From: a virus
Length of the DNA stretch: 35,461 nucleotides
Virus record (IMG/VR): IMGVR_UViG_3300043640_000196
Coordinates: 1 to 35,461 of that record
Direction: 5' to 3' (one strand)
Both the position numbers and the translations under genes were made by a program. Shown in pieces: positions 1,020-15,023 of this stretch. The first letter of the stretch is position 1. Each line of letters starts with the position of its first letter. The notes below the pieces were generated by a model. It was given only the letters and a program-made list of their open reading frames with translations, had not been told where the DNA came from and made no database searches.

Positions 1020-1439
1020 TCACAGGAGGTATCGCTCATTGCTGACCCACGAAGTGAGCCCGCACTGGCCGCAGTAGGCCTTGATCTGTCGGCCGTCTTC
1101 GCTCGGCCGGCGCTGTGCGCACCAGTCGCACCAGTCGACGACGGGCACGATTCGCGCCGGGATGGGGTCGCGTCGGTTGGATCGTTCGCCGTTGCACAGC
1201 TCGCACAGCGTGCGCAGGTTGTCGCTGCGGTCGCTTCCCATCGCCGACCACGGGATCACGTGGTCCAGCTGGAGGTCGTACGTGCTCCCGCAGTAGACGC
1301 ACCGGCGGCCATCGCGTTCGTACACGAGCCGGCGAACCTTGCCCGAGATGCGGTCGCGCTCACCGGTGCGTAGCCGCGGCCAACGCTCCCGCTCCGAGAG
1401 GGGCGTCAACACATCGACGATGGCAGGTTCGCTGAGCAC
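1020..1439 (-). CDS. HNH endonuclease with a second zinc ribbon
   Basis: Encodes 139 aa from GTG 1439. It carries an HNH core: CVYC, then LDHVIP (the catalytic His), a downstream Asn in DNLRTLC, and a closing CELC pair. This is the usual metal- and zinc-binding layout of phage HNH nucleases. The C-terminus adds a four-Cys zinc ribbon (CDWC then CGQC). The same frame is open to a GTG at 1637 that overlaps the previous stop. I prefer 1439 because AGGGAG lies 9 nt upstream and because GC3 is only about 50% between 1440 and 1637 but high after 1439. HNH genes near the ends of actinophage genomes often assist packaging; here it sits beside replication genes, so the role is open. Confidence 0.75.
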   Translation of the reverse strand: MLSEPAIVDVLTPLSERERWPRLRTGERDRISGKVRRLVYERDGRRCVYCGSTYDLQLDHVIPWSAMGSDRSDNLRTLCELCNGERSNRRDPIPARIVPVVDWCDWCAQRRPSEDGRQIKAYCGQCGLTSWVSNERYLL

Positions 1440-1512
1440 TTCGATTCGCTCCCTGGTCGGTCTGTCCACAGGCGACGGTGGACGGGGGTGAGTTGCGGTC
1501 AGAGCGTAAGAA

Positions 1513-1541
1513 CTTCTTTCTCTTCTCTTCTCTTCTCTTCT
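1513..1541 (+). repeat. 29-nt pyrimidine tract of TCTTC/TTCTC units
   Basis: Uninterrupted pyrimidines on the plus strand (purines on minus) made of tandem TTCTC pentamers, about 40% G+C in a roughly 70% G+C genome. It lies next to the GGAATCC repeats. An easily opened or triplex-forming element beside iterons is typical of replication origins; that role is inferred. Confidence 0.75.
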
Positions 1542-1547
1542 AAGAAG

Positions 1548-1633
1548 GGAATCCGTATCCACAGGCGAACGGAATCCCTCTGGAATCCGTTCGGAACCGT
1601 GCACCCATTCCGCTCGGAATCCGGCCGGAATCC
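1548..1633 (-). repeat. Iteron-like GGAATCC (GGATTCC) repeats, candidate origin
   Basis: Exact GGAATCC occurs on the plus strand at 1548-1554, 1571-1577, 1582-1588, 1616-1622 and 1627-1633, with a degenerate GGAACC at 1593-1598. Starts are 11 or 22-23 bp apart, so the sites sit on one face of the helix. Because 11 is not a multiple of three, the copies fall in different reading frames and cannot be a peptide repeat. They lie directly downstream of the winged-helix replication-type gene, much as lambda ori lies with gene O. Confidence 0.7.
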
Positions 1634-2005
1634 TCACGGAACCTTGCCCGCCTCGGCCGCCTTCCGTGCCTCCTCGGCCTTCCGCTTCCGGTCGGCGGCG
1701 CGGCGTTCCTCGATCGCGCTCATGGCCTCGTTGTGGCTGAACCACGCGGCCACCACATAGAAGCTGCGCTCCACGTCCCAGAGCACCGCCTCCAGCTCGA
1801 CGAGCCGCGCGAGCTCCTTCTTCCACTTCGGCCGGCCCAGCCGGCTGATCTGCGCCTCGGACAACAGGCCGTCGACCGCGAGTTGCTTGCACCGCAAGCA
1901 GATCGCCAGGTACAGCAGCGTCGGACCGTCGCCCGCGGCGATGATCCGGTCGTCGTCGAAGAAGCTCACGTCGAGCGGTAGGTAGAGCCTTCCCCGCCGT
2001 GCCAA
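1634..2005 (-). CDS. Winged-helix phage replication-type protein
   Basis: Encodes 123 aa from TTG 2005, with GGGGAGG 5 nt upstream. An in-frame ATG at 2074 exists, but the stretch between is a 12-bp hairpin. The protein opens with RGRLYLPLDVSFFDDDRI, a pattern common in the N-terminal helix-turn-helix domain of phage replisome organisers. It continues with a helical domain (LLYLAICLRCKQ, ISRLGRPKWKKELARLVEL) and ends in a basic, highly charged tail (EERRAADRKRKAEE). Iteron-like repeats begin at its stop codon. Binding to those sites is inferred. No helicase or helicase loader is visible, so host replication proteins may be recruited. Confidence 0.65.
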   Translation of the reverse strand: MARRGRLYLPLDVSFFDDDRIIAAGDGPTLLYLAICLRCKQLAVDGLLSEAQISRLGRPKWKKELARLVELEAVLWDVERSFYVVAAWFSHNEAMSAIEERRAADRKRKAEEARKAAEAGKVP

Positions 2006-2082: not shown

Positions 2083-2592
2083 TCAGCTCTCGACCGTGAT
2101 GGCCTCGGGCCGCACGAGTGCCCTGAGCGCGTCGGTGATGGTGGTCAGTTCCTGCCGCAGGTCGCTGGCGGTCAGCGTCTCGTTGCGCAGCACCTGGCGG
2201 CCGTAGCCGCCCCACTGTTCGATGCCGATGTGGAGCCGCGCGGCCTCGATGGCGTTGATCTGCCCGCCGCACTCGGCGAGGGTGCGCTCCGAGAGCTCGA
2301 CGTCGCCCTCTTCGGTGAGCTTTCCGAAGGCCGTGCGTTGGGTGTAGAGCGCGCGCAGCGCCTGGCGGATGGCGTCCTCGTGGGCGGGGCCGGCGATTTC
2401 CATGTGCTTGATCTGGAGCCCGACGGACGGCTCCTTGTCCTCGTCCGGCGCGCCCTCGGTGCGCTCGACCGAGGCGACCTCGACGATCCCGAGGACCCGC
2501 TTGCCGAGCTTGGCGTAGAGCAGCGGCACGTGCGGTTCCAGCGCCGCACTGGCGTTGGCGGCGAGCTTGCTGTTGAGCTTTACGACGGTCAT
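2083..2592 (-). CDS. Conserved-looking hypothetical protein of the recombination/replication module (169 aa)
   Basis: Starts at ATG 2592, overlapping the preceding stop by ATGA. A soluble, mixed alpha/beta protein of 169 aa. The first third contains a beta-rich segment (HVPLLYAKLGKRVLGIVEV) followed by charged segments, and the C-terminal half is helical. I recall similar proteins in actinophage replication modules but cannot name a domain. Its place between RusA and the replication-type gene suggests a DNA-metabolism role, which is inference only. Confidence 0.7.
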   Translation of the reverse strand: MTVVKLNSKLAANASAALEPHVPLLYAKLGKRVLGIVEVASVERTEGAPDEDKEPSVGLQIKHMEIAGPAHEDAIRQALRALYTQRTAFGKLTEEGDVELSERTLAECGGQINAIEAARLHIGIEQWGGYGRQVLRNETLTASDLRQELTTITDALRALVRPEAITVES

Positions 2593-2783
2593 TCGTCTCC
2601 CTCGTGTTCGCCGAGAATCGCGCGGTCGCGTGCCCGCGCCTCGGGGCTGGCGGGTTTGAGCGGGCGAGCCTCGGTCTTGACCTTGTGGATTTTGTTGGCC
2701 TTGAGCAGGGGGCATTCGACGCACGGCCGCTGGCTCTCGGTGAGCACCCGCGCGGTCTCGTCGGGCTGGTAGCGGTGGGTCAC
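2589..2783 (-). CDS. Small CxxC protein (64 aa)
   Basis: Starts at GTG 2783 with a GTGA overlap on the RusA stop and ends with an ATGA overlap on the next start. It has a single CVEC pair followed by a Lys-rich stretch (PLLKANKIHKVK). Its size, charge and Cys pair suggest a small nucleic-acid-binding or metal-binding protein. No family recognised. Confidence 0.65.
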   Translation of the reverse strand: MTHRYQPDETARVLTESQRPCVECPLLKANKIHKVKTEARPLKPASPEARARDRAILGEHEGDE

Positions 2784-3241
2784 TCCGCCTCCGACCCGAC
2801 GTAGACGCGCAGGATGACGCCGGGTACGTGCAGGGTGTGGGCACCCTCGCCCGGGTATCCCTTGCCGCTGAACGTTTCGATCACCTGCGAGTCGTCCTTC
2901 CATGCGCCCGACGCGGTCAGCGCGTCCTCGACGGCGCGCACCAGGTGGGACAGGTCCGGCCGGGTGATCGGCCAGGTGGGCCTGCGCTTCGGCGCGCTCT
3001 TGGGCTTCGGCATGGTGAAGTGCGCGTGCAGCGAGATCGGCCCGGTCAGTGGGAAGCCCTGCCACGTCGTGGCTTCGATGGCGGCCTCTGCTGCGTGCTG
3101 CACGTGCTCGCGCCAGGGCCGCAATACCTTCGCGTTGGAGTGCACGGACCGGCCCCGGCCGTAGGTGGTGATGGCGCCCTGGGGCGCGGGCAGGCCGAGT
3201 ACCTGGAAGGTCAGCGCGGGGCCGTGCCAGGCGATGGTCAT
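2780..3241 (-). CDS. rusA: RusA-like Holliday junction resolvase
   Basis: Encodes 153 aa from ATG 3241, overlapped ATGA with the previous stop. The C-terminal half matches the RusA core: RPDLSHLVRAVEDALT, then WKDDSQVIETFSGK. RusA dimers bind four-way junctions and cut them with three conserved aspartates. Asp96 and the Asp116/117 pair are present, but the second Asp of the usual DLD motif is Ser98 and the following Asn is His99. The enzyme may therefore have altered catalysis or be mainly a binding protein. It is co-translated with the Erf/YqaJ recombination genes, which fits recombination-dependent replication or concatemer resolution. Confidence 0.85.
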   Translation of the reverse strand: MTIAWHGPALTFQVLGLPAPQGAITTYGRGRSVHSNAKVLRPWREHVQHAAEAAIEATTWQGFPLTGPISLHAHFTMPKPKSAPKRRPTWPITRPDLSHLVRAVEDALTASGAWKDDSQVIETFSGKGYPGEGAHTLHVPGVILRVYVGSEAE

Positions 3242-3507
3242 GGCATGACCTGCCCGCCCCGGCGGCGCCACTGGGCGGCCTGCGGGCACATCGCGAAGTG
3301 CGACTTGCGCAGGTCCGTGCGCCCGAACCGCTTGGCGACGGGGAGCACCCGCGCGAGCGGTGCTAGCTCGCCGTGCTGTAGCTCCAGCACGATCGTGCCG
3401 TCCTCGTAGGTGGCGGCGTCGACGAGCATCTTGCGGCCCCGGGTGGTGGTGGCCCAGATGACCTCGGCCTGGCAGGACCCGCACAGCGTCGTGATCCAGG
3501 CGCTCAT
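3238..3507 (-). CDS. Small zinc-ribbon-like protein (89 aa)
   Basis: Starts at ATG 3507 with ATGA overlap. An N-terminal CGSC is followed by a beta-hairpin-like segment (EVIWATTTRGRKMLVDA) and a later lone Cys near a His (SHFAMCPQA), a plausible metal-binding set. No named family. Translationally coupled to rusA downstream. Confidence 0.65.
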   Translation of the reverse strand: MSAWITTLCGSCQAEVIWATTTRGRKMLVDAATYEDGTIVLELQHGELAPLARVLPVAKRFGRTDLRKSHFAMCPQAAQWRRRGGQVMP

Positions 3508-3776
3508 GAGGCACCCCGTGCCTTTTCCTCGCGGTACAGCTCCCGGTATCGCTCGCGGTACTCCCGACCGAGGCGCGTGAGCGCGCGCGACCGGGCGGCG
3601 ACGCAGGCCGTGACCATTGCCCGGTGCTTTTCAGCCGTCTCGGGATCGCGCTGCCGCCACGCTTGCTGGTAGGCGTTCCAGGCGACCGCGCACGGGTCGC
3701 ACGGCTTCTCGCCAGCCTTCTGGTGGCGCCCACGGCCGCGCGCGGTCCCGACCGCGTCGCCGCATGCCGCGCTCAC
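3504..3776 (-). CDS. Small Cys-motif protein with long helix (90 aa)
   Basis: Starts at GTG 3776 (GTGA overlap). The N-terminus, ACGDAVGTARGRGRHQ then EKPCDPC, is a motif I associate with small actinobacterial and actinophage proteins that probably bind zinc. The remainder is a charged helix ending EYRERYRELYREEKARG. Probably nucleic-acid-binding; function unknown. Confidence 0.65.
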   Translation of the reverse strand: MSAACGDAVGTARGRGRHQKAGEKPCDPCAVAWNAYQQAWRQRDPETAEKHRAMVTACVAARSRALTRLGREYRERYRELYREEKARGAS

Positions 3777-3946
3777 CCGCGCACCGCCGCCCTGCCCTGT
3801 ACCGGCCAGTGGCGCCGGCAGTCGACGGGGTCGATGCACAGCGGCAGGACGATCCGGCCGTGCCCATCGTTGACGGTGCGCGTCTCGGTGCGGGTGCCGA
3901 GCCGGGCGCACGCCACGCACGGCTCCGGCGGGGCCAGCGCGGTCAT
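3773..3946 (-). CDS. Mini zinc-finger-like protein (57 aa)
   Basis: A short gene from ATG 3946 to TGA 3773, overlapping the erf stop (ATGA) and the next start (GTGA). It encodes 57 aa with CVAC near residue 10, then LCIDPVDCRRHW, giving a CxxC ... CxxxxxC-x2-H layout that could hold one zinc. The double overlap and high GC3 support it as real despite its size. Confidence 0.65.
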   Translation of the reverse strand: MTALAPPEPCVACARLGTRTETRTVNDGHGRIVLPLCIDPVDCRRHWPVQGRAAVRG

Positions 3947-14515: not shown

Positions 14516-14740
14516 TCACTTCGGCGGCTTCTTCGAGACGAAACGACCTTCTCCGCCTCTGCCCTCGATCCATCCCTCACGCGTAAGGATGAGTAGAGCC
14601 GACCGCAGCGTGCCGTACCCGACGTCGTACTGCTCTTGCAGCTCAGGGCCGGTCGGAAGGCGGCTGCCGGGCGTGAGTGCGCCGGTCCGGATCAGGTGGC
14701 GGATCGCTTCCACCACCTGTTCATATTTGGGCGTGGCCAT
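14516..14740 (-). CDS. Small GntR-type regulator (single winged helix)
   Basis: Encodes 74 aa from ATG 14740; an in-frame ATG at 14785 preceded by GGGGGCGGGA would add 15 aa. The protein is a complete GntR winged helix: YEQVVEAIRHLIRTGAL, SRLPTGPELQEQYDVGYGTL, then LTREGWIEGRGGEGRFV. There is no effector-binding domain, as in compact regulators of actinobacterial plasmids and phages. An array of GTCGAC boxes lies over its promoter, implying autoregulation and perhaps control of the rightward gene pair at 15.0-15.5 kb. Confidence 0.82.
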   Translation of the reverse strand: MATPKYEQVVEAIRHLIRTGALTPGSRLPTGPELQEQYDVGYGTLRSALLILTREGWIEGRGGEGRFVSKKPPK

Positions 14741-14796
14741 GCTGGGTGTCCTCTCCTCGGGTCGCACACCCAGTAGATCAGCCATTCCCGCCCCCT

Positions 14797-14854
14797 GTCG
14801 ACACAGTCGATACAATCCGTGGTCCAGAGTGTCGACACTGTCGACACTGTCGAC
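14797..14854. promoter_or_regulatory. GTCGAC operator array
   Basis: GTCGAC at 14797-14802, 14831-14836, 14840-14845 and 14849-14854, and GTCGAT at 14806-14811. Within each group the spacing is 9 bp; AGTGTCGACACT (14828-14839) is a perfect palindrome. The groups flank and overlap the GntR promoter. Confidence 0.7.
14807..14835 (-). promoter_or_regulatory. GntR gene promoter
   Basis: TCGACA (14835-14830), 17-bp spacer, TATCGA (14812-14807) on the minus strand. Both boxes are embedded in GTCGAC/T repeats, so regulator binding would exclude polymerase. Confidence 0.45.
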
Positions 14855-15023
14855 TAGCATCCTAGCCGTCCCCTCGGGTCGCACTGACGGGACAACCCGG
14901 CCCGCGACTTCTCCCCCGAGGCGCGCGGGCCAGCGCCGGCCCCGAGGTCCGCCGTCAGGGGCCACGGGGCCGGCGCAGGGGACCGATCCACCCGAACCAC
15001 CCCTGGTACCGGGAGGGCAGCCC

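Follow-up and report, generated by a model that had tools for sequence, protein, structure and literature searches.

In lambdoid phages, the origin of replication is formed by iterons that bind the O protein together with an AT-rich tract, both of them within gene O, and the number of iterons in lambda and Stx phage origins varies among close relatives (PMC7466680). A helix-turn-helix initiator with a cis site in or next to its own gene is a feature that the locus described here shares with RepA-type iteron plasmids and with the prophages of RepA mycobacteriophages, phages whose RepA proteins are 320-350 aa long and in which no repeated motif was identified by the authors (PMC7157519); the RepA mycobacteriophages were set side by side with our locus from the published description.

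The stretch of DNA analysed here (the window) is a virus record of 35,461 bp with a GC content of 69.7%. Its positions 1513-1644, with flanks reaching to about 1462, very probably form a phage replication origin served by an adjacent 123-aa initiator, which would bind the iterons so that the neighbouring tract opens and the helicase is loaded there. The features of the locus are the following:

1634-2005, minus strand: gene of the replication initiator (123 aa from an assumed TTG start), comprising only a predicted winged-helix DNA-binding domain
1634-1637, minus strand: GTGA overlap between the initiator stop (TGA, 1636-1634) and a possible GTG start (1637-1635) of the downstream frame
1548-1644, minus strand (GGATTCC on the initiator's strand): iteron array in 11-bp register
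1555-1563, plus strand: DnaA-box-like GTATCCACA, one mismatch to TTRTCCACA, within the array
1513-1541, plus strand (purine on the initiator's strand): pure pyrimidine tract of 29 nt with TCTTC units, presumed DNA unwinding element
1462-1470, plus strand: DnaA-box-like CTGTCCACA, beyond the tract
1020-1440, minus strand: HNH endonuclease gene (PF01844, E 5e-12), likely start GTG at 1440

As in the lambdoid origins in gene O (lambda, Stx phages), direct-repeat initiator sites and a melting-prone tract are found in or beside the initiator gene, and the AT-rich tract flanking the lambda iterons is likewise present in the window. On the other hand, the iterons of the window are shorter, follow an 11-bp step and break the reading frame, and DnaA-box-like sites stand next to the tract. 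Moreover, the lambda O iterons lie inside the initiator frame, whereas the array comes after the stop codon in the window and in the relatives L007 and L113-L115, and is inside the frame only in longer cousins. The 123-aa protein matched no O family in PHROGs or Pfam, no P-type helicase loader was recognised downstream in PHROGs/Pfam scans of the larger ORFs, and the genes scanned included no recognisable helicase or helicase loader. The likeness to lambda O and its iterons proposed in the initial annotation is retained for the layout and abandoned for family membership, in view of the lack of detected homology, the shorter iterons and the array outside the frame. Taken as a single locus, this would be an origin of a known type, the layout of which would by analogy work like lambda ori outside the lambda O family.

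Iteron array, pyrimidine tract and DnaA-box-like sites

Exact copies of GGAATCC are located at 1548, 1571, 1582, 1616 and 1627 (plus strand), all within 86 bp (1548-1633), and no further copy was found outside this segment on either strand of the 35.5-kb window. The five exact copies and one variant originally described in these 86 bp are all present, the variant being GGAACCG at 1593, and the helical phasing then proposed holds for the 11-bp steps and is completed by two further degenerate copies, CCATTCC at 1605 and GGAACCT at 1638, which fill nearly the same register; the steps including all degenerate copies are 23, 11, 11, 12, 11, 11 and 11 bp. A count over the whole window does not support enrichment of GGAATCC in total (5 copies versus 3.6 expected) and does support its clustering, since all copies fall into the one 86-bp segment. 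No other non-simple 7-mer reaches five copies per 120 bp in the window, the maximum being 4 copies of a 7-mer per 120 bp in 300 dinucleotide shuffles and 2 copies in 20,000 local shuffles; the locus thus has the direct-repeat cluster above chance expectation that is looked for in iteron-type origins. The exact doublet GGATTCC-N4-GGATTCC occurs twice in the 35-kb window as compared with eight times in 101 whole genomes of one actinobacterial order, where two of the eight sites fall at an initiator locus. The copies of the window array being degenerate, its lag-11 score (25/40) does no more than equal the local control maximum. The hairpin potential of the DNA strand (z -3.3) was rejected as a structural signal, as near-palindromic GGAWTCC copies pair trivially together. 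No published description of a GGAWTCC iteron was found in a literature search that reached few subscription papers.

The pyrimidine tract next to the iterons, initially annotated at exactly its length of 29 nt, exceeds every other purine/pyrimidine run of the contig, and 300 simulated (Markov) genomes gave runs of at most 20 nt. Both the lowest-GC 60 bp of the contig (40%, at 1499) and its least stable 40 bp (at 1507) coincide with this tract, a melting-prone element adjoining the repeats as expected for an iteron-type origin, and similar simple tracts are also found beside the arrays of relatives.

Sites matching TTRTCCACA with at most one mismatch number nine in the window, including those at 1462 and 1555. 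In the sister phages L113, L114 and L115, an exact TTATCCACA or TTGTCCACA is present at the position matching the 1462 site, at a nearly equal distance from the initiator start and on the same strand, while no DnaA-box-like sites were found in the cousins outside this subclade. CCT represents only 4% of the proline codons of the window, and the DnaA-box-like sites nevertheless read CCTGTGGA, so that coding alone is unlikely to account for them. Their occurrence weakly suggests a role of host DnaA at the origin of this subclade.

The initiator and its phage

Residues 12-117 of the 123-aa protein match phrog_1882 (E 6e-7) and phrog_2447, annotated as 'replication initiation protein' (E 1e-6), the latter match spanning just positions 27-114 of 295. 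A cognate initiator gene, as judged by these matches, is therefore adjacent to the repeats, and this adjacency is conserved. As first annotated, the array begins at the stop of a winged-helix replication-type gene (TGA, 1636-1634), with the correction that this stop overlaps a possible GTG start; the same ATGA/GTGA overlap is seen in L007, L113, L114 and L115. Like the phrog_2447 and phrog_1882 proteins, whose N-terminal 115 residues or so it matches and at the end of whose domain the relatives' array is found, the protein has the predicted DNA-binding part of the family; unlike them, it ends before the array and is devoid of the C-terminal half (the families having 295 and 259 positions respectively).

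The AlphaFold model of the 123-aa protein (pLDDT 85.7, pTM 0.75) displays the helix/strand order of a winged helix, and this fold is predicted from the model and from family membership. A fold search against the PDB with this model returned nothing significant (best E 0.14, with winged-helix entries among the weak matches), no PDB relative of the protein was found, and no named phage matched it by tblastn. The sole match of the first protein scan, made with the 123-aa query alone, was L005, which was discarded as spurious and of low complexity; an alignment of eight sequences was too divergent for scanning.

Elsewhere in the window, the following genes were recognised:

minus strand: terminase pair, portal, major head and tail proteins (gene scan), the terminases at the other contig end from the array
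in the window: repressor gene (gene scan)
in the window: integrase-like gene (below Pfam's cut-off)
in the window: RecE- and Erf-like recombination genes (profile match)
in the window: RusA-like resolvase (gene scan)

The best relatives and main groups of the terminase are actinophages. On the basis of the repressor, integrase-like, recombination and structural genes together with these terminase relatives, the source phage is probably temperate and its host probably an actinobacterium. A second repeat cluster, with four or more copies of TGTCGAC, was noted at 14797-14855; it adjoins a small gene (14516-14741, minus strand) reading like a GntR-type regulator and looks like the operator of that gene.

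Conserved layout and pairing of initiator with iterons

Protein searches blind to the motif led to L113, L114, L115, L116, L117, L118, L119 and L120, five of which are new, the contigs of L115, L116 and L119 having been retrieved earlier by motif. L113-L115 are 41-44% identical to the 123-aa protein of the window. GGAWTCC arrays with 11-bp steps, located right after the DNA-binding domain and followed by a simple tract, are present in all eight of these loci (five new and three known), L121 having been left out of the tally because its sequence is incomplete. In L117-L120, the frame of the initiator continues through the array; in L007, L113-L115 and the window, the initiator ends just ahead of it. 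In the other direction, a search for a triple-iteron pattern matched 45 viral contigs. Out of 42 motif-found viral contigs tested, 17 had a phrog_2447 match, and in 17 of 17 the array was inside this match or at most 10 bp away, about 16 of the 17 being independent since L042 and L047 are near-duplicates.

At least eight further motif-found arrays lie in proteins matching 'DnaD-like helicase loader' families, such as those of L014, L019 and L037. These phrog_8489/phrog_5708 phages resemble the present family in having arrays with an 11-bp step at residues 125-135 or so, followed by a simple repeat, and a remote sequence match to the family of the window was obtained (hhalign E 6e-5, probability 66). 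They differ from it in that the proteins belong to other families and the iteron core is often another one (GGCAACC, GGAAACA).

The motif was also matched in the chromosomes of bacteria such as Nocardia and Competibacter; most of these matches have no relation to initiators, and none was counted as support. In the Nocardia chromosomes L053, L083, L084, L088, L095, L099, L103 and L106, arrays of GGATTCCTCGAGGATTCCACAGGGATTCC with TGTGGA boxes were observed; several have a similar downstream gene end, and these loci do not seem to belong to phage initiators. The Competibacter contigs L076, L080 and L104 also have long GGATTCC arrays stepping by 11 bp (L104 with six triplet matches), and no initiator was seen on them. 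In the metagenomic viral contigs L013, L022, L030, L031, L033, L039 and L040, GGATTCC arrays stand beside short ORFs that start with MGTNVPISETG or MSPLGIPVEST and are not obviously initiators.

The use of GGAWTCC tracks the initiator tree, with 10 changes as compared with 17.5 in shuffles and none of 500 shuffles as low, the loci being partly selected by motif. A fixed GGAWTCC motif as a rule for the whole family was nevertheless rejected, many protein-found relatives using other iterons. In the pair L171 and L172, the C-terminal part of the initiator is 89% identical and the N-terminal domains are without detectable similarity; their iterons, both of 11 bp, differ as well (GGATTCC versus ACTCGCGAGAC), and the switch is at the simple tract. 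As read from these two sequences, a natural domain swap has replaced the DNA-binding domain of the initiator and the iterons together, which would lend indirect support to binding of the initiator to the repeats.

With regard to spacing, 11 bp was the best step in 16 of the 26 loci having a clear short-period repeat near the domain end, as against 9 of 192 control stretches, in which multiples of three dominate (the control tally being made without a threshold). By this short-period measure, 22 of 48 loci, the window with its degenerate copies included, gave no clear array. It seems from these comparisons that the 11-bp step is kept family-wide more than the iteron sequence. A broader reading, to which we give an even chance, is that of a large superfamily of phage initiators, highly diverged and not confined to actinobacterial phages, whose origin would be a cassette of DNA-binding domain, 11-bp iterons and simple tract, the step being kept over the sequence. 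GGAWTCC would then be one of several interchangeable 'origin addresses' (also GGCAACC, GGAAACA, TCGCGAG and AACGCGTT) swapped with the domain by recombination at the tract, and the subclade of the window a variant with the array outside the frame and with DnaA boxes. Such swappable 11-bp origin cassettes are more interesting and less certain than the single locus.

The locus provides a concrete and testable pair of origin and initiator for a phage without close cultured relatives. The rule by which it is read, an array at the end of the DNA-binding domain with an 11-bp step and then a simple tract, may locate unannotated origins in many actinobacterial and other phages. Matched pairs of initiator domain and iteron, including the natural swap, would let the code of protein-DNA recognition be worked out and would allow small compatible replicons for actinobacteria.

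Proposed mode of action and alternative readings

By analogy with lambdoid origins, the 123-aa initiator would bind the GGAWTCC iterons as monomers or dimers. With the iterons spaced by about one helical turn (11 bp), the bound proteins would all lie on the same side of the helix and assemble into a nucleoprotein complex. The resulting strain would melt the purine/pyrimidine tract next to the array, where the genome is least stable, and the replicative helicase would be loaded at the opened tract. In this subclade, host DnaA may contribute to helicase loading, because the subclade's initiator is without the C-terminal domain of its longer relatives and the tract has DnaA-box-like sites on either side.

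A candidate phage origin with an adjacent winged-helix initiator, as initially proposed, remains the best reading, being in line with the initiator family, with the melting-prone tract and with where the array lies in the motif-blind relatives. The iterons of replication initiators often double as operators, and the array does stand between two co-directional genes, so that an operator in place of an origin was weighed, at which the initiator, or a different regulator, would control operon transcription, either by autoregulation or by acting on the HNH gene. This appears unlikely: no sigma-70-like promoter or terminator was found in 1350-1750 (actinobacterial promoters may escape detection), the array of the cousins lies in the middle of the coding frame of the initiator, an unusual site for an operator, and the adjoining melting-prone tract is left unexplained. 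Direct repeats in clusters are found at centromere-like and packaging sites as well. A partition (parS-like), packaging or recombination site is nonetheless a very improbable alternative to an origin here, given that the scanned genes include no recognised partition gene, that the terminase genes lie at the opposite contig end and that the array goes with the initiator family from phage to phage even where the flanks are unrelated.

The least probable of these alternatives is that the array is kept for the amino acids it encodes, as a linker of repeats in either the HNH protein or the initiator. It draws on the HNH reading frame, which is open up to 1637, right through the iterons, from the GTG that overlaps the initiator stop, and on the longer cousins, which translate their arrays. 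However, the 11-bp step rotates the frame, as stated in the initial annotation, which took the pattern to act at the DNA level. L113 and L114 have a nearly identical initiator through the array and differ by exactly one 11-bp iteron, GGATTCCGTCT, and by a single 5-bp unit of the tract, a difference that puts a stop into the L114 frame overlapping the array; the exact 11-bp indel shows that a DNA unit is kept and not a peptide. In addition, the drop in GC3 noticed earlier in the interval was confirmed (46-59% depending on the frame versus 78-97% in the window's genes). The first 40 codons counted from the GTG at 1637 have a GC3 of 0.475 (about 0.48), whereas the HNH part reaches 0.84 and other genes about 0.9; the GTG at 1440 is the more likely HNH start.

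These data support the view that the interval in the window is not ordinary coding sequence. The earlier description as probably non-coding thus agrees with the low GC3 and has to be qualified by the open HNH frame. As to the refuting case named in the initial annotation, an interval conserved as protein among related phages, the iterons do lie in a coding frame in the longer-initiator cousins. There, however, the 7-mer stays unchanged as the reading frame shifts, and the array of these cousins would be both coding and cis-acting.

The HNH gene was also considered as part of the initiator and rejected, the closest relatives L113-L115 showing no HNH there. In the prophages L132, L143, L152 and L154, a winged-helix domain of the initiator type is fused in frame to an HNH domain; these fusions, along with the HNH gene directly after the initiator of the window, raise a possible functional link between HNH and origin. 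Finally, the initiator-origin module of L113 and L114 (about 2420-3782) is near-identical between flanks that are unrelated, as if the replication module had been exchanged as a unit.
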